Made by a program: the position numbers and the translations under genes. The notes beneath the pieces are model-generated. The model had not been told where the DNA came from. It made no database searches and saw only the letters and a program-made list of their open reading frames with translations. Shown piece by piece: positions 3,907 to 32,879 of a stretch of DNA of 44,177 nt (its first letter is position 1; every line of letters begins with the position of its first letter). Source of the DNA: a virus; the IMG/VR virus record IMGVR_UViG_3300025000_002876, positions 1 through 44,177 of that record; one strand, written 5' to 3'.

Positions 3907-4753
3907 TTGTTGTAGTTTCAGTAAGCTCATTGATTTGTCTTTTAAGTTTTATTTGATTTCGTTTTAATTCAATCAGTTCGGGCATTTCCCGGAATATCGG
4001 TTTTAGATTAGGAGACATGTGTGTAAGTTTGGATAGAATGTAATTGTCGCTTAACTCTTCGCGGCCAATATTTGCGGCTATGGCTTTATCTCTCGAAACG
4101 AGTTCCCAGTTTTCCGGATCACAGTTAAGCCGATCATCAGTTTTGCAAGCAAGAATATTATCTGAAGGAATGGGACCGTATTTTTGCTCCCAGTTGTATC
4201 GGTTTAAATGAATAAACTTTCCATTGATTTTAATATACTTGTAATGTCTTTCATAATGGCCCCATACCCTAATTTGATTTTCAGGAAATGCTGTTCGATA
4301 TCCCAGGCTCCAATCATTATTTTCGTAGGTGTATCCTAAATTAAATATCTGGTTGTTTCTGACCCGTATTTTATAAGTTTCTTCATCAGTATGCTTCAAC
4401 CCCAGCAATTCCTGTTTTTTCTCAACATGTTTCTTATTGAAAGTGCGATATACTTTTTCTCCGTCAATGATTCTGAATGTGCTTTTCCGGTCATTCAGCA
4501 TTATTGCTAATTCAGTGTAACCATGTGTTTTATAGTTTTGATTTAGAAACTCAATATCTTCTTTACTCCATCGAATTTGAATACCCCTTCGCAGTCCTAA
4601 TCTGCGACATTGGTGCAGAACACTTGATGGTTTTAAAGTATCTGATCTCATTGAATTGATCGCTTCGCATAACTGAGCATTAGTCATACTGAAGAAATTA
4701 TCCTTCAGAAAATCGAGTTCGGATTGAGAGTAATAAATAGGATCAGTTTTCAT
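3899..4753 (-). CDS. HNH homing-type endonuclease
   Basis: 284 aa. Residues about 5-40 and 60-95 are two SANT/Myb-like helical repeats beginning with similar text (SQSELDFLKDNFFSMTNAQL; WSKEDIEFLNQNY), likely DNA-binding. The middle and C-terminal part carries an HNH_3-type core: KYIKINGKFIHLNRYNWE, then GPIPSDNILACKTDDRLNC, then NWELVSRDKA, the pattern H...W...G.IP...NCD.NW. A Lys/Arg-rich helix closes the protein. Such free-standing HNH nucleases are common in phage genomes and help their own spread. It sits just downstream of the DGR genes in the same direction, so it may have moved with them (inference). Confidence 0.75.
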   Translation of the reverse strand: MKTDPIYYSQSELDFLKDNFFSMTNAQLCEAINSMRSDTLKPSSVLHQCRRLGLRRGIQIRWSKEDIEFLNQNYKTHGYTELAIMLNDRKSTFRIIDGEKVYRTFNKKHVEKKQELLGLKHTDEETYKIRVRNNQIFNLGYTYENNDWSLGYRTAFPENQIRVWGHYERHYKYIKINGKFIHLNRYNWEQKYGPIPSDNILACKTDDRLNCDPENWELVSRDKAIAANIGREELSDNYILSKLTHMSPNLKPIFREMPELIELKRNQIKLKRQINELTETTTNG

Positions 4754-4759
4754 TAATTT

Positions 4760-5065
4760 TTAAGTAAATAAGTATCGGTCATTTTCTTCAACTATTGTTG
4801 TGGTGAATGGGAATCCGCTTTCCGGCACTTGTTTGATCACTTCAATCAAACCACCTGCTCCTGTAAAAACTACATGCTTCCGCTGATCAAATGATATTTG
4901 CAGACACAAACACTTTCCGGATCCTTTCTCTTTGAATACTTTGGAGTCCTCAATTTTGAAATGATGAACAACGATCTCCCTGTTCAGAATCTTCGACATT
5001 TTGATTTTCTCACCTTCAAAAGCCTGGCTTTCTACCTTGATGTTGAATTGGCTAAACGTGTTCAT
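4760..5065 (-). CDS. Small protein overlapping the DGR reverse transcriptase; unknown
   Basis: 101 aa. Its ATG lies inside the end of the reverse transcriptase gene (14-nt overlap, ATGAACACGTTTAG), so the two are probably translationally coupled. The sequence is basic in the first half and beta-rich (HFKIEDSKVFKEKGSGKCLC, HVVFTGAGGLIEVI). It does not look like Avd, the helical-bundle accessory protein of many DGRs. It could be a DGR accessory factor or an unrelated early protein of the OB-like kind. A shorter form from Met23 is possible. Confidence 0.6.
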   Translation of the reverse strand: MNTFSQFNIKVESQAFEGEKIKMSKILNREIVVHHFKIEDSKVFKEKGSGKCLCLQISFDQRKHVVFTGAGGLIEVIKQVPESGFPFTTTIVEENDRYLFT

Positions 5066-6011
5066 GGAGTAATTTCTTTAGGAGGTTTTTACTGTCGCAA
5101 TGCGAGGCCCATCCGTTGTAGGAGGCGATTGATTTGGCATTTCTGTTCTTTACCATCATCCGTGCAAAGTTCTGTTTGATGCTCTTCCGTAGCAGCGTGT
5201 GCGTGTGGCGAAACACATAACCGACAAAGTCAATCCCCCGCGCATCAACCGGGAATACCTGGTAGTTTCCTTTGATGGTTAGTTTAAGCCGGTCGTTCAG
5301 ATAATTCCTGATTTCGGAAAGCAATTGGTGCAAATAAGGCTTGCTGCTTGAGAGGATTACCAGATCATCAGCATAGCGGAAATAGTATTTTACCCGCTTG
5401 TTTTCTTTCATCCAGTGGTCGAAATAGCTCAGGTAAAAGTTGGCGAAATACTGGCTCAGGTAATTGCCGATTGGAAGGCCGTCAGTTGAATCAATAATCT
5501 CATCGAGTAGCCACAGCAGGTCGTTATCCTTAATTTTTCTGCGGAGGAGCTGCTTGAGTATTTCATGATCAACATTGGGATAAAACTTCTTTATATCCAG
5601 CTTCAGACAATATTGCGTATTCTCAACATCCTTTAAAGCTCGTTTCACCGCATTGGCCGCAGGATGAATGCCTTTGCCCTTGATGCAGCTGTAAGTATCA
5701 GCGGTGAAGGTTGACACGTATATTGGCTCCAAAACGTTCATCACCGCGTGATGGGTGATCCGGTCAGGAAAATAAGGCAACCGGAAGATCAGGCGCTCTT
5801 TGGGTTCAAAAATGGTGAATGTTGTATATTCTGATGTTTGATAGGTTTTATCCTTCAGCATTTCATGCAGCTTTTGAATATTTCCTTCCCGATTCCGGTC
5901 GTGCCCGATTACTCCAGGCTGTTTCGATTTACCCTTCCGCGCAATTTCATCGGCCAACTGGAGGTTATCGATGCTGTAAATCTTCTCGTATAAATTGTTG
6001 ATCCGTTTCAT
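5052..6011 (-). CDS. Diversity-generating retroelement reverse transcriptase
   Basis: 319 aa, the usual size for a DGR RT. It copies the TR RNA with adenine-specific errors to produce cDNA that replaces the variable repeats. Visible RT motifs: KLDIKKFYP (137-145, first catalytic Asp D139), GLPIGNYLSQYFAN (178-191), YADD (213-216, the catalytic Asp pair), LTIKGNYQ and FVGYVFR (262-268). The IG-N-SQ form of motif 4, instead of the QG-SP form of group II intron RTs, is the known DGR signature. There is no maturase or endonuclease domain, and no group II intron RNA around it. The TR lies 106 bp upstream on the same strand, with both target genes beyond. Confidence 0.95.
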   Translation of the reverse strand: MKRINNLYEKIYSIDNLQLADEIARKGKSKQPGVIGHDRNREGNIQKLHEMLKDKTYQTSEYTTFTIFEPKERLIFRLPYFPDRITHHAVMNVLEPIYVSTFTADTYSCIKGKGIHPAANAVKRALKDVENTQYCLKLDIKKFYPNVDHEILKQLLRRKIKDNDLLWLLDEIIDSTDGLPIGNYLSQYFANFYLSYFDHWMKENKRVKYYFRYADDLVILSSSKPYLHQLLSEIRNYLNDRLKLTIKGNYQVFPVDARGIDFVGYVFRHTHTLLRKSIKQNFARMMVKNRNAKSIASYNGWASHCDSKNLLKKLLHEHV

Positions 6012-6116
6012 ATTTGGCCTTTGCTTTTAATGGATCGTTTTCGCTTTCGTTACCAACGCTCCGTTAAAGAATTCGTTATTTTTTGCACTGTTGGCAAGGT
6101 CTACACTGCCAGTATC

Positions 6117-6197
6117 GCATAGGTGAGAGCTGACATTCGTATTCGTGTTATCGTAGTTGTAATTCGAGTTCGAAAAACTGAAACTGGAAGACAGAAC
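6117..6197 (-). repeat. DGR template repeat (TR)
   Basis: 81 bp. Read on the minus strand it is rich in AAC, AAT and TAC codons (encoding NSNYNYDNTNTN). Aligned without gaps to 6313-6393 it has 13 mismatches, and to 6749-6826 it has 14. Every mismatch is at a TR adenine (T on the plus strand). That is the hallmark of adenine-directed mutagenic retrohoming. The TR has 22 adenines; 17 differ in at least one VR. The short open frame across it (6027-6218) is best explained as the fossil frame of the template, not a gene. Confidence 0.95.
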
Positions 6198-6231
6198 TAG
6201 CAGCAACGCAGCGTACAACCTTTCTTATATT

Positions 6232-6663
6232 TTACTCCGGATAGAGAAAGTATTCCTGGTATTCAGTCTTGAACTGTTCGGCTATATACAAGGCTTTCTC
6301 TGAGGAGTCAGTGCAAAGGCGAGAGCCGACAATCGTATCCGCGTTACCGTAGAAGTAATCCGAGTACGAAAAACCGAAACCGGAAGACAGAACCCTGTAC
6401 CAAGGGAAGTATTTGTATTGATTAGAGTCGCTCCAATCGGGTCTCCAACCGTTATTAATTGCAAGAAAGATGATCATCAGCTTATAGGCTGCAATGATCG
6501 GTTTGCGAAGATCCTCTGGGATCATTGAAACATCAGGAAGAGCGGTCGGATCAACGTTTTGCTTTGCGCAAGCATCTTCAAACGATTTGATTGTTCTGAA
6601 ATCGAATACGCCTTCGACTGCTTCGCGCTCAGGCACCATTGTTTTTTGTGATTTTTTGGCCAT
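6232..6663 (-). CDS. DGR target protein 1 (C-type-lectin-like variable protein)
   Basis: 143 aa; the variable repeat covers residues 91-117, close to the C-terminus. The N-terminal part is helical (TIKSFEDACAKQ..., AAYKLMIIFLAINNGWRPDW), followed by aromatic-rich text (QYKYFPWYRV) and the variable segment SSGFGFSYSDYFYGNADTI ending VGSRLC. This fits the small CLec-fold DGR targets common in gut Bacteroidota. Template-adenine positions encode Y, D, Y, F, G, N, A, D and I here. No signal peptide or membrane segment. It is paralogous to the next gene upstream, which ends 4 bp before this start. What it binds is unknown. Confidence 0.9.
   Translation of the reverse strand: MAKKSQKTMVPEREAVEGVFDFRTIKSFEDACAKQNVDPTALPDVSMIPEDLRKPIIAAYKLMIIFLAINNGWRPDWSDSNQYKYFPWYRVLSSGFGFSYSDYFYGNADTIVGSRLCTDSSEKALYIAEQFKTEYQEYFLYPE
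6313..6393 (-). repeat. DGR variable repeat 1 (VR1)
   Basis: 81-bp counterpart of the TR inside target protein 1. 68 of 81 positions are identical; all 13 differences fall on TR adenines. Homology ends abruptly on both sides (after the conserved TGC at the 3' end and before GTTCTGTC at the 5' end). Confidence 0.95.
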
Positions 6664-6667
6664 GGTT

Positions 6668-7144
6668 TTATTTTTTGATGGTTAGAAATTGTTCATACAG
6701 GTCAATAAATTGCTTGGCAGCATAGTTTGATTTTGCCTCAGATTCGAAGCAAAGGCGAGAGCCGACAGACGTATTCGTGTGACCGTAGGTGCAACCCGAG
6801 TCCGAAAAACCGAAACCGGAAGACAGCTTGAAGTAAGGCCACCATTTTTGCTGATTGGTATTGTCCCAATCTAGAGTCCAGCCCTGGTTAATTGCCTTCA
6901 CTACAATTTTTAGTTTTTCATAGTTGATAGTATCCAGATCCAGTCCAAGTGCGGCAAACTTGTAGTTAAATTCTTCTTCCGTAATTCCAACCTCTTCGCA
7001 GGCATCTGCAAAGGTTTTGATGTCGGTGAATTCTCTTTTTTTGAAACAATCTTCTCCAAATGTTTCGGTCAGTACATTCTGAAACCACTTAGGAGCTTCA
7101 GGATAAAGCTTTTTTGCTGTTGTTTTTTTGAGTGTTAATTCCAT
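6668..7144 (-). CDS. DGR target protein 2 (C-type-lectin-like variable protein)
   Basis: 158 aa; the variable repeat covers residues 107-132. Same design as target 1: a helical N-terminal part (IKTFADACEEVGITEEEFN), then KAINQGWTLDWDNTNQQKWW, then the variable segment SSGFGFSDSGCTYGHTNTS ending VGSRLC. Both proteins share the NGW/QGW-DW and SSGFGFS/VGSRLC frame while the template-adenine positions differ (Y/D, D/G, Y/C, F/T, N/H, A/T, D/N, I/S). No export signal. The tandem pair probably arose by gene duplication and is diversified by one RT and one TR. Confidence 0.9.
   Translation of the reverse strand: MELTLKKTTAKKLYPEAPKWFQNVLTETFGEDCFKKREFTDIKTFADACEEVGITEEEFNYKFAALGLDLDTINYEKLKIVVKAINQGWTLDWDNTNQQKWWPYFKLSSGFGFSDSGCTYGHTNTSVGSRLCFESEAKSNYAAKQFIDLYEQFLTIKK
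6749..6826 (-). repeat. DGR variable repeat 2 (VR2)
   Basis: 78-bp counterpart of the TR inside target protein 2. 64 of 78 positions match the TR; all 14 differences are at TR adenines. At seven template adenines VR1 and VR2 carry the same replacement base (six A to G, one A to T); at the other variable positions they differ from each other. Confidence 0.95.
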
Positions 7145-7177
7145 GTTTTAAGATTTTATTTGATATTAGAAAGCATT

Positions 7178-14741: not shown

Positions 14742-15950
14742 ATGAAAAGAGAGAAACTTGTGAGGCTGCCAATCGTTTGCGATGCGGGTGGCGATCTTAC
14801 CAAAAACTGGTTTGTCGAGTTTTATTGCCGAAATCCTAAGAACGGCAAGTTCGAACGCCAGAAAATCTATAAAGGCATTAATAAACTGCATACCGTTTCG
14901 GAACGGCGCAAGGCTTCCCAGGCATTGTGCAACGAATACACCGATAAGATCCGTAATGGATGGAGCCCATATATTGATGACCTGGTTATTTACGACGACA
15001 ATCTCCAGTTTCAATCGGCCATTAAAAACTACCGACGGGCAAAGTCTCACAACGGGACTTTCAATTTTTACTCTTCCAAATTTCTAGACCATATTAAACA
15101 GAGTGTCGATCCGGAGGGAACACTGCCCACCTACCGCAGTAAATTACGTTGCTTTAATGCCTGGTTAGAAGATAAACGAATGAACGATGTGGATATCTCG
15201 TGCATCGATCAACCTGTGTTGTACGACTTTTTCAGCTTTATTATTAATGATCTGAAGCGTTCTGCTATTACCATTAAAAAATACAGGCAGATATTATCAG
15301 CGGTTTTCGATTTTGTCCGTAAAGACCGAAAACTTTTTCAGAATCCTTGTTTCGACTTGCCAACCACTAAGCGCATTAATGACCAGACCCCGCAGCCTAT
15401 TCAGGAATTCGATATTGAAACTTTCCGTGATGCCATCAAAGAGCATGATCAGCAATTGTGGCTGGCTATCTCATTTGAGTATTACTGTTTTTTGCGCCCT
15501 GGTAAAGAGATAAGACTTCTGCGTATCGGTGATATCGACTTTGGACGTGGAATGATTCGCGTTTCGCCGGTTAATTCGAAAACTACGGAGCGGCACATAC
15601 CCATTCCAACCCAATTTTTAAAGGCAATCAGGGAAGAATATAAGTTGCATACTTATAATAGATCACTGTATGTGTTCGGAAATACCGGTGTGCCTGGACC
15701 TAATCACCTTTCAAAAAACATACTCCGGTATCGTTTCGCTAAATTCCGTACCGCCCTGAATATGCCCGATATGTATAAGCTCTACAGCTGGAAGCATACA
15801 GGGAATATCCGAGCCGATGAAGCGGGGATTCCCAGGCGCGAAATTCAGCACCAGAACGGTCACACTTCGATACAAACGACCGAAACATATATGAAAAATA
15901 AAAGGGGAATTATTTCTGAGAATATAGTACAACGATTTCCAAGCTTATAG
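14742..15950 (+). CDS. int: Tyrosine-family integrase 1 (SWKHTG subfamily)
   Basis: 402 aa. Order: N-terminal arm-binding region, SAM-like core-binding domain (about 115-215), catalytic domain (about 225-400). Catalytic features: FLRPGKEIRLLRIGDID holds the box I Arg; NSKTTERHIPIP holds the beta-hairpin Lys; box II reads YSWKHTGNIRA; GHTSIQTTETY holds the last His and the Tyr nucleophile. In box II the canonical H-x-x-R is Y-x-x-K. I know this SWKHTG form from Bacteroidota prophages, so it is probably active. It follows the repressor and the putative attP, so it is likely the phage's own integrase. Confidence 0.9.
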   Translation: MKREKLVRLPIVCDAGGDLTKNWFVEFYCRNPKNGKFERQKIYKGINKLHTVSERRKASQALCNEYTDKIRNGWSPYIDDLVIYDDNLQFQSAIKNYRRAKSHNGTFNFYSSKFLDHIKQSVDPEGTLPTYRSKLRCFNAWLEDKRMNDVDISCIDQPVLYDFFSFIINDLKRSAITIKKYRQILSAVFDFVRKDRKLFQNPCFDLPTTKRINDQTPQPIQEFDIETFRDAIKEHDQQLWLAISFEYYCFLRPGKEIRLLRIGDIDFGRGMIRVSPVNSKTTERHIPIPTQFLKAIREEYKLHTYNRSLYVFGNTGVPGPNHLSKNILRYRFAKFRTALNMPDMYKLYSWKHTGNIRADEAGIPRREIQHQNGHTSIQTTETYMKNKRGIISENIVQRFPSL

Positions 15951-17030: not shown

Positions 17031-17564
17031 TCAATTTTCTCCTAATGCCCTCAAAACCCATCCGTAGAAATACTTCCGGCTGGTAGGTCGTTTTTTTACG
17101 ATGCTGATATAACGCGCTATTTTGGCCACGGTAAATGCAGCAAGGAAGTGATCAGCGTCGAATGCATTGATTTGGGCAACTGAATCGGGACCTATAACAC
17201 CGTCCGGATTAATTTCGACAACCAATTGTGCCAATGATGCGCTGGATCCAACACCGGCATTGACGGCAAAGTCAAAAATAGAACTGGACACTTCCTGATT
17301 TTCAATGTTGTCAGCATTGATTTTATCCCAGAAGTTAACCCGGTAGAAATCGGAAACAGCTTCCTGAAGGTCAGTATCTTTATCGAGGTTTGCAGGGAAG
17401 CCTGCCTGACGTTTCAGCATATCGATAGTTTGCCAGCCCTCCCATTTGCTGAAAATTTTGCGGGCCACGCCTTTATAGGTTTCGCCTCCCGGATCGTCCG
17501 GATCGTTGACGTAACCGCCTTCGTGGGCGATCATCAGGTCAAATGCTGTTTTGAAGTTTGCCAT
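17031..17564 (-). CDS. Endolysin, glycoside hydrolase family 108 lysozyme
   Basis: 177 aa, a typical length. The N-terminal block FKTAFDLMIAHEGGYVNDP followed by DPGGETYKGVARK is diagnostic for GH108, with E15 in HEGGY as catalytic acid. A peptidoglycan-binding-like C-terminal half follows (DFAVNAGVGSSASLAQL, GVIGPDSVAQINA, YISIVKKRPTSRKYFYGWV). It cleaves the glycan chain of peptidoglycan at the end of infection. No signal peptide, so it depends on a holin; one holin gene lies immediately upstream and one downstream. Confidence 0.93.
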   Translation of the reverse strand: MANFKTAFDLMIAHEGGYVNDPDDPGGETYKGVARKIFSKWEGWQTIDMLKRQAGFPANLDKDTDLQEAVSDFYRVNFWDKINADNIENQEVSSSIFDFAVNAGVGSSASLAQLVVEINPDGVIGPDSVAQINAFDADHFLAAFTVAKIARYISIVKKRPTSRKYFYGWVLRALGEN

Positions 17565-18106: not shown

Positions 18107-19090
18107 TTATTTTCTGAAGAAATTGTCTCCGGCAATCTGCCTGGCTTTGTCTTCGGTTGACGTTCTGATATACCGGAAGAAGCTTTTCTCGGTGGTATGT
18201 CCGGTTAGGCTCATAATTTCGAATGTTTTCATTCGCGCTGTTTGGTACATGTTTGTAGCTGCACTTCTCCTGGCTGTGTGACTGCTAATCATTTCCCATT
18301 TTTGTTTTGTTTCGGTGACCAACTTGCCGCCTTTTGTATAGTGAAAAACGATTTCTTCAGTAAACCCAACTCGTTGACAAATCTTTTTTATGTAACGGTT
18401 AAAGTGCTGGATTGACAGTCCAGGTGATACTTCTCCATTATACTTCTGATAAATCTCACGCACATAATCGTGTAGTGGGATGGTGACCTTAACTCCTGTT
18501 TTCTTAGTGATCTTGATAATATAATCCTTCGTAAAGTTATCCCTGGTCAACGTAGAGTAATCAGAATAACGAAGGGCTGTGAGACATCCAACCACAAACA
18601 GATCCCTGATTCGTTCCTGTTTTTTAGTCAGGCCTTTAAAGTAATAGATCCGGGTGATTTCGTTCATCGAAAGGTAAACGGTGAAAATCTCTTCCGGATC
18701 AACTGAAACATCATCGTAACTACAATCAACGGCATAACCGTATTTCGCGGCTTTGGCAGCCATTGCCTTAACAAGCGAAAGTAAGGTGATGATGTACGTT
18801 TGCCTCAGATCCTTTGCCTGAAGATAGAGTATGAAGTCATCCATAAAGTCTTCGCCAACGCTGTTGGTAAATATATCGGCTTCATACTCTTCTGAGAATC
18901 CATTCAGGTGATGGATCAGCGTATGATACGCTTTTCGGTAACTTTCGCCCATGCGCTTTGCTTTTCGCTTTACGGTTTGAATGATAAACTCTGAAAATAA
19001 AACTCCGGTTTTCGGTTCGGCCTGGATGAGCCGGTTGATGTAGTCCCGTTTGCCATTGGCGTTGTGAACTAATTTTAAAGCAGTGTTCAT
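18107..19090 (-). CDS. Tyrosine-family integrase 2
   Basis: 327 aa from the ATG at 19090 (MNTALKLVHNANGKRD). The open frame runs on to 19168, but that part (RSPLKAIPF...) looks like untranslated leader. SAM-like N-terminal core-binding domain (about 30-140). Catalytic domain with Arg in CLTALRYSDYSTL, Lys in ITKKTGVKVTIPLH, box II HTARRSAATNMYQ (normal H-x-x-R), box III GHTTEKSFFRYI with the Tyr nucleophile. Bacteroidota-type site-specific recombinase. A second recombinase in the late half may drive inversion or resolution, or be a relic of another element. Confidence 0.9.
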   Translation of the reverse strand: MNTALKLVHNANGKRDYINRLIQAEPKTGVLFSEFIIQTVKRKAKRMGESYRKAYHTLIHHLNGFSEEYEADIFTNSVGEDFMDDFILYLQAKDLRQTYIITLLSLVKAMAAKAAKYGYAVDCSYDDVSVDPEEIFTVYLSMNEITRIYYFKGLTKKQERIRDLFVVGCLTALRYSDYSTLTRDNFTKDYIIKITKKTGVKVTIPLHDYVREIYQKYNGEVSPGLSIQHFNRYIKKICQRVGFTEEIVFHYTKGGKLVTETKQKWEMISSHTARRSAATNMYQTARMKTFEIMSLTGHTTEKSFFRYIRTSTEDKARQIAGDNFFRK

Positions 19091-19242
19091 TTCGTATGTT
19101 CTCCCAAAAGGAATAGCCTTAAGTGGGGAGCGGTTTACGAAGACCGCCAGACACGAATGTCTGAACACTTAAGGCTACGCCTCAAATATAGTTAATATTT
19201 TAATTGGAAGTTTCGTAATTTTTCCCACTTCTAAAATACGAA

Positions 19243-29198: not shown

Positions 29199-32100
29199 CT
29201 ATAAGCCCCGGTTTTTGTTGATATCTTCCCAATCGTCGAGGTCTTTTTTGACCTGTTCGGTATAGACAATCAGCTTCTTTTTAGTGAATTCTTTTATTGC
29301 AGCGATTAGCTCTTTGGCTGTAATATTATCCATTTGGTTGGGATCCTGAAACGAGTTCGGGATGACGGGAGCAGCGGAGGAGTTAGAAGCATAACCGCTG
29401 GATGAATAACTTCGATTTGACTGGCTGGCTTGTATGGCTCCGCCGGTTGGGGTGTAGCGTGTTTGGCGCAAGTTTTCGAGTCCGGCAATAATGGATCCGG
29501 TAAACGGATCGTTAACCATGGAGGCGGTGGCTACCCATTCGCCTTTATGTACCACTCCTGCAGGTTCGTATTTTCCACCCGGACCGGTATAACCTCCGGT
29601 GGCAAATCCCTTAATGGTTTGGGCAACTACGGCGGCAATACTTACACCGGCACTTACTGTATTAAGGGTTACCCATGGCTGCCCGAATGTTAGCGGCGAA
29701 GCTGCTACGGCCTTGGCATTGGCAATGGCTGTATTGAATATGATTTGAGCAATTGCAGCAGCTTGCTGAGCAAGAAACAAAGCCTTGCCAATGGCAGATT
29801 CTTTCCCGGCCAATTCGACCAATGAGCCAAATAAGGTATTGGCAGCGCCAAAAATAGCATCTCCAATTTCTTGACGGCGATTGAGTTCGTCAATCTTAAT
29901 CTGTATTAGTGTATCGGATAACCGGCGTTCGGCCTGTGCTATCAATACGGCGTTTCCCTTGGCATCAATCAGGTCCTGGTTGTATTGTGCCTGGGCAAGT
30001 TCGCGCTCGGCTGCCCATCGTTCCTGATCGCCTTGTGCCTTTGCTTCGTGAATAAGGGCTGCATCCATCTGTTTCTGAAGCGCAGCGGCATTATCAAAAT
30101 CGGACATGGCTTTGAGATGTGCCTTTTCCTTTTCCTCAATCGTTTTATTGATGGTATCGTTCAGCGCAATTTCCTGAACGGATAAATCTTGTTTGTCGAG
30201 CAGTTGTTTTTTGAGGGCTTCAATTTCTTCTTTGAAACGTTGTTCCTGAATGGCTTTTTCTTTGTCAATACCATCTTTTAGATTATCAATTTTAGCATCG
30301 GCCAATTCTTTTTGTGCTTTTTCGAGAAGGTCTTTAACTGTTTTTTCGGCTGCAACTTGTTTTTCGAGGAGTTGCATCTGAGTTTCCTCGTATTCTTTGC
30401 TGCCAGCTTTATAAATCGTTAATTTTTTAGCAAGGAAATTAAGTTCAGCTTGCAGTAAATCTGCGTTATATTGATCTTCTGAGCCTTTCGTTTCGAGATG
30501 TGTTTTTTTAATCCATGCCATTTTTGCATTGTATTCAGCTTCTGCCGCTTCAATGCGTTTTTTGATTGCTTTATCGTCTGCTTTTTCTCCGGATTCGCCT
30601 TGTTTGGTGGTACCCAATTCGTTCAGCGCATTGATTTCTTTCTGAATGGCCTCTACTTTGGCATTTCGTGCGGCGACTTCGGCTGGAGTAGTGGCAATAA
30701 TGGCTTGTGCGTCTGACAATTCTTTTTCTTTTAGTTTTATCAGATCCTGAGCGGCTTTATCGCCACCACCATCGCCACCGTTAAGTAAATCGGCAATAGC
30801 CTGTTCTTTGGTGATACCCAATAACTTTTCGCGCTGGAGTACCAAGTCTTCCTCGGCTTTCGATAGATTGTTGTAGGCTGTTTTTGCAGTGTTTGATGCT
30901 AATATTGCTGCATTGCCTCCTGACTTTACAGCATTCCAGGCATTTTGCCAAAACGTGATATCGGCACCTTTGCCTGACTGAAGGTCGAGTAACTGTTTTT
31001 CAACTTCTATCAGTTTTTCTTTGGCTGCCTGGGCTTTGGCATTTTGCAGAAGCGAATCGGTATAATCTTTTATGGCTGTATCAGCGGCTTTGGTATTAAT
31101 GGTTTCGAGCGAAAGAAAGCCCAGGTATTTTGGAGAAATAGCATTTAATTGCTGGATGGCTTTAAACCGGTCGAGCTTTGACAGTTTTTCATTGCGGGCC
31201 ATATCGAGCAAGCTGCCCAGTTTAATTTTTTCTTCAACGATGTTTTTTTGCGCTTCCAGGTTAATGTCGTTGAGCATTAGCTGTGCTTTTTGTGCGGAAG
31301 TAAGCCTTCCGGTAAGCATAACCAATGCAACACCCAAAGCAACTACTGCAGCAATAACAATACCGATCGGATTGAGGCCTGTAGTAATATTAAACATGCG
31401 CATAGCGGCTGTTGCGCGTCCGATGTTTCCGGTTAAAACAGCCTGGGCAGCGGCCCATAAATAGGTAGCTCCCATTTGAGCTTTATGCCAAAATACCTGA
31501 AGTTTATCGAGGGCAATGCTAATCAGCTTTTCCTTATTCAACCGTGCTTCCCACATTGCATGTAATTTGGTGGCAATGGTATAGGCTAATAAAGCGCTGG
31601 TTATGGTTACAATCATTGTTTTGTGGCGAACAAAGAAATCGATGGATATGGTTAATCCTTTAATGAGGTATGATAAACCATTGGTGCTGACCTGAAGTGC
31701 AGGTGCAAGCTTTTCTCCCAGGGCAATGCTCATGACATTCAACCTATTTTTTGCCTGTGCGAGTTTAGCATTGTTATTGTCGGTATTGATGGCTGCCTGT
31801 TCGAGGGCTACATTGGTGCCGGTCATAGCTGCTTCGTAATTTTTCAATTCACCCACATTGGCAATCAGTATTTGAGCGGTATTGATGTTTTCAGTACCGA
31901 ATTTTTTAGTTAGCTCGGTAACAGAATAGTTCTTTTTACCCAGATTTTCGATAGCTGTGGACATGCCAACAATGGCAGGATTGGTATCGTCTGCCCCGGT
32001 CTGCAAATCGAGAAGAACTCCTTTTAATGAACGTCCGGCAATTTCGGGTTGGGTAATACGCGGAGCGAGAGTTTCGATGGTGGCAGCCAGCGCCTCAATA

Positions 32101-32879
32101 CTGATATTAGCCAATGCTCCAACGGTACCGGCTTTTTCGAATGCTGCAGTCAGGTAGGGTATTTCTCCGGCACCAGCTTTTGATCCGGCTGCCAGTACAT
32201 TTATTATCCTTCGAGCCTGATCGGCTCCAACGTTGTACTGGTTCATAACCATCGTTAATCCTTCGATGGCTGGTTGCAATTCTATTTTTGCAGCGTTGGC
32301 CAATATAATGGCTTCAGTAGTTACGGCAACGAGTGCTTCTTTATTTTTAAGCAGTTCGGGGCGTGCTGATCCGGTTTTAGTGAAGGCGTCGATAATTTCC
32401 TGAGCTGATTGTGTTACCCTGATTCCTCCCTCCAGGGTTGCAGTGGAAAGTTCTTTTGCTTTATTACTTAACCATTCGAGATTGTCGCCTGCCAAACCAG
32501 TTAAAGCTGATAGATTGTCGACACGTTCTTCGTAGTCGTTAAAGGTTTTAATAAGTTGCTTAAATCCAAAAATCAATCCGGTAATGGAGGCTATCCCTGC
32601 GGTAACCATAGTAAAATAACGGTTAAAGCCATCAGCCATGCCTTTCATACTCCACGATTTCTGTATGTTCTGTACCTGGGCATTGTGCTGTGCCAATATT
32701 CCCTGCAGCTGTCTCATTTTGCGGGTTGCAGCCTCGTATTCCTTCGAGCCGATAGTCATCAGCTTTTGTGAGTTGACAATTTTTGTCAATTCGGCACGGA
32801 TCGATTTAACATTATTGGATACCTCTTTGCCATCGACATTAATGTACAGGTTTATTCGGCGGTCGTATGATTGTGCCAT
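29199..32879 (-). CDS. Tail tape measure protein
   Basis: 1226 aa, the largest complete gene here. N-terminal DRRINLYINVDGKEVSNNVK is typical of the TP901-type tape measure start. Next: a tape-measure core at about 100-400 (ATLEGGIRVTQSAQEIIDAF, KAGTVGALANISIEALAATI), hydrophobic segments near 95-110, 420-440 and 500-525, long coiled coils at about 760-1000, and small-residue-rich text near the C-terminus. Its length would set a tail of roughly 180 nm if the usual 1.5 A per residue holds. A host-type repeat (29,341-29,367) is read in frame as VIPNSFQDP near residue 1170. Confidence 0.93.
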   Translation of the reverse strand: MAQSYDRRINLYINVDGKEVSNNVKSIRAELTKIVNSQKLMTIGSKEYEAATRKMRQLQGILAQHNAQVQNIQKSWSMKGMADGFNRYFTMVTAGIASITGLIFGFKQLIKTFNDYEERVDNLSALTGLAGDNLEWLSNKAKELSTATLEGGIRVTQSAQEIIDAFTKTGSARPELLKNKEALVAVTTEAIILANAAKIELQPAIEGLTMVMNQYNVGADQARRIINVLAAGSKAGAGEIPYLTAAFEKAGTVGALANISIEALAATIETLAPRITQPEIAGRSLKGVLLDLQTGADDTNPAIVGMSTAIENLGKKNYSVTELTKKFGTENINTAQILIANVGELKNYEAAMTGTNVALEQAAINTDNNNAKLAQAKNRLNVMSIALGEKLAPALQVSTNGLSYLIKGLTISIDFFVRHKTMIVTITSALLAYTIATKLHAMWEARLNKEKLISIALDKLQVFWHKAQMGATYLWAAAQAVLTGNIGRATAAMRMFNITTGLNPIGIVIAAVVALGVALVMLTGRLTSAQKAQLMLNDINLEAQKNIVEEKIKLGSLLDMARNEKLSKLDRFKAIQQLNAISPKYLGFLSLETINTKAADTAIKDYTDSLLQNAKAQAAKEKLIEVEKQLLDLQSGKGADITFWQNAWNAVKSGGNAAILASNTAKTAYNNLSKAEEDLVLQREKLLGITKEQAIADLLNGGDGGGDKAAQDLIKLKEKELSDAQAIIATTPAEVAARNAKVEAIQKEINALNELGTTKQGESGEKADDKAIKKRIEAAEAEYNAKMAWIKKTHLETKGSEDQYNADLLQAELNFLAKKLTIYKAGSKEYEETQMQLLEKQVAAEKTVKDLLEKAQKELADAKIDNLKDGIDKEKAIQEQRFKEEIEALKKQLLDKQDLSVQEIALNDTINKTIEEKEKAHLKAMSDFDNAAALQKQMDAALIHEAKAQGDQERWAAERELAQAQYNQDLIDAKGNAVLIAQAERRLSDTLIQIKIDELNRRQEIGDAIFGAANTLFGSLVELAGKESAIGKALFLAQQAAAIAQIIFNTAIANAKAVAASPLTFGQPWVTLNTVSAGVSIAAVVAQTIKGFATGGYTGPGGKYEPAGVVHKGEWVATASMVNDPFTGSIIAGLENLRQTRYTPTGGAIQASQSNRSYSSSGYASNSSAAPVIPNSFQDPNQMDNITAKELIAAIKEFTKKKLIVYTEQVKKDLDDWEDINKNRGL
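29341..29367. repeat. Host-type repeat inside the tape measure gene
   Basis: GATCCTGAAACGAGTTCGGG followed by ATGACG; 24 of 26 bases match a copy at 40,108-40,133 in the methylase-like gene. Both are read in frame without breaking the gene. Confidence 0.75.

Follow-up and report, generated by a model that had tools for sequence, protein, structure and literature searches.

A single reverse transcriptase (RT) and a single template repeat (TR) serve two tandem variable genes in a diversity-generating retroelement (DGR) that we describe from the 44,177-base IMG/VR virus record IMGVR_UViG_3300025000_002876; this whole stretch of DNA is called the window below. An original prediction, made from the letters alone, had proposed a phage-borne DGR of this composition, with an 81-bp TR, variable repeats (VRs) at 6313-6393 and 6749-6826, and TR/VR differences confined to adenines, and all of these parts were found in place. 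Comparison with related loci leads us to put at roughly 0.9 the probability that the cassette is a DGR of an active clade whose targets are rewritten singly. DGRs of this kind are known. In this one, a multi-target layout is conserved and targets are updated singly, a candidate new accessory protein is encoded, and spacer and target can pair in an address-like manner that lends itself to testing. Three of its features go beyond the prediction: a 101-aa gene 3' of the RT gene, a class of fixed adenines in the TR, and complementarity between the TR-RT spacer and the VRs.

A DGR reverse transcriptase and adenine-only differences

The RT open reading frame (ORF) carries YADD and IGNYLSQ, in keeping with the motifs by which DGR RTs have been defined ((I/V/L)GxxxSQ and YxDD; PMC3521204), and it matches Pfam RVT_1 (1.4e-18) and phrog_1423 (3e-131). 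With a family profile of 23 relatives, the best PDB match is 8ub7, the RT of the BPP-1 DGR (bRT), at 6e-57, while group II intron and retron-type entries score 2e-23 or weaker. Judged by profile match and motifs, the RT thus lies within the DGR clade, as predicted; PADLOC matched it only as a generic reverse transcriptase. Among the eight ORFs of the cassette and its flanks, there was no Pfam match to the Avd-like family PF05635. About a quarter of DGRs are without avd (PMC7290462), so Avd does not define DGRs as a whole. The DGRs of RT lineage 3 are likewise reported without avd (PMC7290462), and agreement of the present cassette with them is limited to the target-TR-RT order and the missing avd.

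All 13 mismatches between VR1 and the TR, and all 14 between VR2 and the TR (over 78 bp), fall at TR adenines, for which the hypergeometric chance is 1.3e-9 and 3.1e-10, respectively. These counts had been predicted correctly, but they cannot be taken as pure mutagenesis: five differences per VR, at TR adenines with plus-strand coordinates 6185, 6179, 6131, 6124 and 6120, recur as fixed differences in almost every relative, so that random mutagenesis comes to eight changes in VR1 and nine in VR2. With the five positions removed, the chance is still only 1.3e-6 and 2.5e-7. Across 150 distinct TR/VR sets, interior TR adenines were changed in 2820 of 4562 cells and other bases in 27 of 6498, as adenine-only transfer from TR to VR would predict.

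Two kinds of adenine can be told apart in an alignment of 59 distinct TRs. Interior adenines are randomised in the VRs; columns 36/37, 43, 97, 104 and 108 hold adenine in many or most TRs and face one fixed VR base (G, or T at column 108). Columns 97, 104 and 108 are the fixed differences between the initiation of mutagenic homing (IMH) element at the VR 3' end and its TR counterpart, IMH*, and this 3' group is the counterpart of the difference between IMH and IMH* in BPP-1. Protein selection is an alternative at columns 36/37, 43, 97 and 104, because the fixed base there also belongs to conserved glycine or arginine codons. Any base at column 108, the third position of a CTN leucine codon, would leave the protein unchanged, yet this base is T in 97 of 97 VR copies under a TR adenine and, in a larger set, in 298 of 299 VR copies, while the neighbouring synonymous columns 99 and 102 vary. 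Column 108 is therefore either constrained as nucleic acid or outside the transferred tract.

Targets apparently rewritten one at a time

Near-isogenic pairs of relatives have RT and TR sequences that are identical or nearly so, and they differ almost only within one VR, at template adenines. Between L006 and L007, VR2 carries nine changes and VR1 is identical; between L072 and L074, VR2 carries 11, VR1 is again identical, and the other differences are confined to a block far upstream. Three further events come from comparisons with L044. Against L042, VR2 differs at nine adenines and at two non-adenine sites that now read as the TR, with one further base difference just upstream of VR2 and with VR1 and VR3 identical; against L043, VR3 alone differs across ~6 kb aligned; against L045, VR1 has 12 changes, accompanied by one other base, and VR2 is identical. 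The two former non-adenine differences, now reading as the TR, show the direction of transfer. In a pair with a single VR (L351/L352), 15 changes are found, all at adenines, and the remainder of the 10.7 kb is identical. L009 and L268 seem at first to differ in the TR, an effect of an indel in the spacer.

In each of the five events in multi-VR cassettes, one VR was rewritten and the other comparable VRs stayed identical. Within a genome, VR1 and VR2 carry the same base at adenine columns at a rate of 0.338, close to the 0.319 of shuffled pairs (31 of 1000 shuffles were as high). Five single-VR events and near-chance agreement together indicate that targets are rewritten singly. The question originally raised, whether both targets are updated together, is thus answered in the negative for the five visible events. 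Joint updating of VR1 and VR2 from one complementary DNA (cDNA) might have been suspected from their common TR and common 3' end, and from same-genome agreement slightly above that of shuffled pairs; set against events that altered one VR only, five times out of five, and against an agreement this near expectation, we regard it as extremely improbable. The anticipated pattern of VRs varying at adenines beside a stable TR was seen among near-isogenic relatives and not in this copy. The findings that the prediction had named as refuting it did not turn up, although the nearest contig, L004, has VRs identical to those in the window.

Three points count against this reading. The nearest contig, L004, is identical over 12 kb, both VRs included; the update events are few (five) and come from three lineages; and they are seen at the level of assemblies. 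Identity that extends to the VRs makes L004 silent on activity, so that activity of this particular copy would be argued from its relatives. The same identity could be taken to mean that the copy is inactive, a DGR fossil retained in a phage. We consider this very unlikely: the RT, the targets and the 101-aa ORF are all open, neither VR has a single non-adenine mismatch to the TR, and close relatives (93% RT identity) are active. The identical contig may also stem from the same site, in which case possibly no time has passed between the two.

A structured spacer complementary to the VRs

The BPP-1 spacer has been described as folding, recruiting an RT-Avd complex and priming cDNA synthesis from an internal adenine (PMC12875486). 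In the present clade, 47 spacers are consistent with two hairpins, A and B, and a stem that joins the TR 3' end to the spacer tail ahead of the RT start codon. Covariation argues for this structure, with 73 double-change cells against 15.7 in shuffles, a signal that collapses in every slid register. In hairpin B, one pair alone shows as many as 22 double changes; the TR/tail stem hardly varies and has just one. In several relatives (L006, L009, L020), the spacer tail and the RT ATG are separated by an insert that resembles a repeat (CCTTCGAC.GGCTCAGGAACC), and pieces resembling it also occur in the loop of hairpin B.

Both VRs end, on the 3' side, in GCCTTTGC, and the spacer tail, GCAAAGGC, is its exact reverse complement; the corresponding TR end reads ACCTATGC. 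When 161 loci are placed in register, the TR pairs with the tail in 71-96% at six positions and in 7% and 6% at the two conserved adenines. At these same two positions, the VR pairs with the tail in 63% at the first and, at the second, by 295 T-A and one C-G of 297. VR and tail also change together in divergent loci (TTT/AAA 118, TTG/CAA 13, TC/GA about 6), some of which are interrelated, so that independent changes are fewer than these counts. The tail octamer has a second copy on the same strand at window positions 5670-5677, within the RT gene, probably by chance.

A similar relationship can be seen in BPP-1, where nucleotides 48-56 of the spacer, AGGTGGTCA, match VR TGACCACCT as its reverse complement over 9 nt (p 0.007), against 5 nt for the TR. 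Spacer A56 is reportedly the priming adenine in BPP-1, with cDNA said to start opposite TR G117, and we take the segment complementary to the VR to end at that adenine. With this numbering, primer and cDNA joined together give exactly the bottom strand of the VR in BPP-1. In a simple longest-complement test of 18 other phage DGRs, comparable complementarity was found in Versailles (10 nt, p 0.01), vir215 (8 nt, p 0.05) and vir525 (8 nt, p 0.047).

The same test speaks against a general rule. Pairing at p <=0.05 was found in four of the 18 DGRs, BPP-1 among them, and not in the other 14, and the VR beat the TR in eight of 18, so that universality was not borne out in most of them by this simple measure. 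A hairpin downstream of the VR like that of BPP-1 was not clear in the present clade, the longest stems averaging 4.4 and 4.6 bp against 4.2 and 4.3 bp in shuffles. On sequence evidence, the case for spacer/VR pairing is strong in this clade and suggestive in BPP-1, but it is not proven for DGRs as a whole.

We give the interpretation of this pairing as a targeting device a chance of even or somewhat less. It is a distinct if lesser possibility that the complementarity is instead an element of messenger RNA (mRNA), for example one by which target mRNA pairs with the RT start region in translation control, or a by-product of shared ancestry. The motif does stand directly ahead of the RT start codon, all parts are on one strand, and both sides are near-invariant in most loci, so that many counts are non-independent. 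But the TR mismatches fall exactly at the two conserved adenines, the T at the synonymous CTN third base is held while neighbouring synonymous positions vary, divergent loci alter both sides together, and the complementary segment of BPP-1 is some 100 nt upstream of the RT.

A small protein gene tied to the reverse transcriptase

The 101-aa gene follows the RT gene in nearly all RT loci with enough flank, the overlap usually being 3-22 nt. By profile search and in RT-fetched loci, 151 of 153 copies adjoin an RT, a count biased by the fact that most copies were fetched through the RT; of the other two, one lies at a contig edge and one in a locus that has lost the RT but kept the TR, both targets and the 101-aa ORF. 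The gene is present at 71 of 78 RT loci in bacterial genomes. In distant Bacteroidales (L338-L356), a match to the family, with weaker scores, lies ~370-430 nt after the RT, and L080 and a few divergent loci are without the gene. Among 50,697 phage records, relatives were detected only in two archaeal viruses, ANMV-1 and vir525, where the gene directly follows the RT, and none was found on any plasmid searched. An ORF labelled Avd in a figure of the ANMV-1 paper (PMC4372165) may be this gene.

Searches of Pfam, NCBIfam and PDB sequences with the 101-aa protein gave nothing significant, and it had no match to the small ORFs or C-terminal segments after the crAss-like phage RT. Its AlphaFold model (predicted local distance difference test, pLDDT, 88) has the element order of an oligonucleotide/oligosaccharide-binding (OB) fold, a five-strand barrel with a helix between strands 3 and 4. 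The PDB neighbours are mostly OB folds (RuvBL OB domain, SSB, PriB, HIN, RPA, P12) at Z 4-6, not above search background, and the OB fold is put forward as a prediction of the model.

We think it probable that this protein is an accessory factor of the DGR. A passenger phage gene, such as one for a general single-stranded DNA-binding protein that merely sits behind the RT, would suit a predicted fold that is common and the loci that do without the gene. It is nonetheless an unlikely explanation of a family in which nearly every copy adjoins an RT, the exceptions being a contig edge and an RT-deleted locus, in which most bacterial RT loci have the gene, and whose only relatives detected in the phage records are genes after the RT in two archaeal-virus DGRs.

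Distribution, targets and genomic surroundings

Related RTs were found on 244 IMG/VR contigs (best 80 of 244 used) and, with one genome per species across 84,980 species, in 304 cases (best 80 of 304 used). The best 80 from bacterial genomes are almost all from Bacteroidota, including Prolixibacteraceae, Flavobacterium, Pedobacter, Muricauda, Elizabethkingia and Chitinophagaceae, with some Ignavibacteria. The layout is common to about 180 distinct relatives in Bacteroidota phages and prophages: of the 180 distinct loci whose upstream sequence reaches far enough, two VRs are present in 130, three in 25 and a single one in 25. The VR closest to the TR lies ~190 nt upstream of it and the next one ~560-620 nt. 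The RT on L277, a contig of a Prolixibacteraceae metagenome-assembled genome, is 93% identical, which suggests a host in that family for the virus.

Some relatives depart from this layout. L048 (371-451) and L050 (606-694) have a third VR 4-5.4 kb from the TR, within a further target-gene relative, so targets need not adjoin. L160 (3290-3776) lacks the RT but retains the TR, both targets and a 101-aa ORF shortened by its first residues, which would fit a non-autonomous cassette or an assembly deletion. A search with the TR-end motif gave 116 loci, 22 of them with neither RT nor 101-aa gene in the stretch covered (e.g. L189, L192, L249); part of these may be RT-less templates instead of contig edges. 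In the crAss-like phage cr52_1 (L084, 4001-5026), translation of the RT with table 11 meets in-frame stop codons, as would be the case with a recoded stop codon.

On the minus strand the cassette reads target gene 2, target gene 1, TR, spacer, RT and 101-aa ORF, and both VRs precede TR and RT as transcribed (Table 1). In L008, L010, L011 and L012, homology is limited to a stretch from 4752-4764 to 7144-7167, and the flanks are unrelated or placed differently, so the cassette moves as a unit.

Table 1. Coordinates of the DGR cassette and of other features in the window
Feature	Coordinates	Strand	Remarks
Whole DGR cassette	4752..7151	-	unit common to otherwise different phages; alignments to L008, L010, L011, L012
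Target gene 2, 158 aa	6668..7144	-	phrog_11581; VR near 3' end
VR2	6749..6826	-	14 differences from TR, all at TR adenines
IMH core of VR2, GCCTTTGC	6749..6756	-	reverse complement of spacer tail
Target gene 1, 143 aa	6232..6663	-	phrog_11581
VR1	6313..6393	-	13 differences from TR, all at TR adenines
IMH core of VR1, GCCTTTGC	6313..6320	-	reverse complement of spacer tail
TR, 81 bp, 22 adenines	6117..6197	-	same sequence throughout each near-isogenic group
IMH*-like TR end, ACCTATGC	6117..6124	-	pairing with spacer tail broken by two adenines
TR-RT spacer, structured RNA	6012..6116	-	covariation
Spacer hairpin A	6083..6097	-	covariation
Spacer hairpin B	6032..6062	-	strong covariation
Spacer tail, GCAAAGGC	6017..6024	-	directly ahead of RT start codon
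DGR reverse transcriptase, 319 aa	5052..6011	-	RVT_1; phrog_1423; family profile against PDB
101-aa protein, predicted OB fold	4760..5065	-	candidate accessory factor; 14-nt overlap with RT end
Endolysin	17031-17564
Tape measure	29199-32879

The two target genes are paralogues of about 40% identity without a known domain. Searches of Pfam, NCBIfam and PDB sequences with the target proteins gave nothing significant, and matches were to uncharacterised viral proteins only. In an AlphaFold model of the target (pLDDT 85.5), the VR is a predicted beta-hairpin of low confidence ahead of the last helices; a PDB fold search with it, relevant to the C-type lectin or immunoglobulin-like fold expected of DGR targets, gave nothing significant. 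The targets lie near primase and DUF-type genes, at least 11 kb from the lysis and tail modules. A binding function on the virion is the usual guess for phage DGR targets. Elsewhere in the window, an integrase (phrog_1) is encoded at 14742-15950 (+) and a second, tyrosine-recombinase-like ORF at 18107-19168 (-), with lysis genes between them.

Comparison with known DGRs

The cassette shares with BPP-1 (mtd-avd-TR-brt) a related RT (profile E 6e-57 to 8ub7), adenine-only TR/VR differences, an IMH/IMH* difference, a structured TR-RT spacer and, in BPP-1 over 9 nt, spacer complementarity to the VR IMH and not to the TR. Unlike BPP-1, which has one target, Avd between target and TR, a (GC)14 element and a post-VR hairpin, it has two targets, no detected Avd, a predicted OB-fold protein after the RT and no clear post-VR hairpin. 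The DGR of a crAss-like phage (crAssphage LMMB; RT lineage 3 without avd, PMC7290462) has the same target-TR-RT order, no avd and an RT about 50% identical, but a single target (called a tail-collar fibre protein in PMC7290462), a longer RT C-terminus and no relative of the 101-aa protein that we could find. Another phage DGR also feeds two target genes from one TR; its targets differ in topology, both have C-type lectin domains, and Avd is present, whereas the targets here are two small tandem paralogues. The archaeal virus DGRs of ANMV-1 and vir525 have a relative of the 101-aa protein as the next gene after the RT, but a single target of another, tail-type kind and an RT about 40% identical.

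Proposed mechanism and implications

We propose that one template diversifies two tandem target genes (up to three in relatives), one target per event. The transcript across TR and spacer would fold into a structured RNA, whose spacer tail would anneal imperfectly to the TR 3' end and prime reverse transcription, with the RT misincorporating opposite template adenines. The cDNA would then replace one VR whose 3' end, the IMH, pairs perfectly with the spacer tail; the TR would be spared because the conserved adenines at its own 3' end break that pairing. The 101-aa protein may join the complex, perhaps in the place of Avd.

More tentatively, and at somewhat less than even odds, DGRs at large, or a large part of them including BPP-1, may choose their target by RNA/DNA complementarity, the cDNA-priming spacer segment being the reverse complement of the VR IMH and mismatching the TR IMH*, with the OB-fold protein behind the RT as an accessory factor in Avd-less DGRs. 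Spacer/IMH pairing or the OB-fold protein may already have been noted in earlier DGR literature. A 21-bp element with five TR mismatches is reported to set the direction of a DGR (PMC3240598), and the integration step is still called incompletely understood (PMC12875486, 2026). What reads the difference between IMH in the target and IMH* in the template, and so gives DGRs their direction, is still an open question in the field, one that compensatory mutations could address in a simple way, given the complementarity in this clade and in BPP-1. For the accessory factor still missing from Avd-less DGRs, the RT-linked protein with its predicted OB fold is likewise a concrete candidate. If the proposal is true, the RNA of the retrohoming complex itself would specify, like an address, which sequence is to be rewritten, and the template would go untouched. 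Where several targets fed by one template are rewritten independently, as events in close relatives indicate, a phage can explore one variable surface while keeping another.

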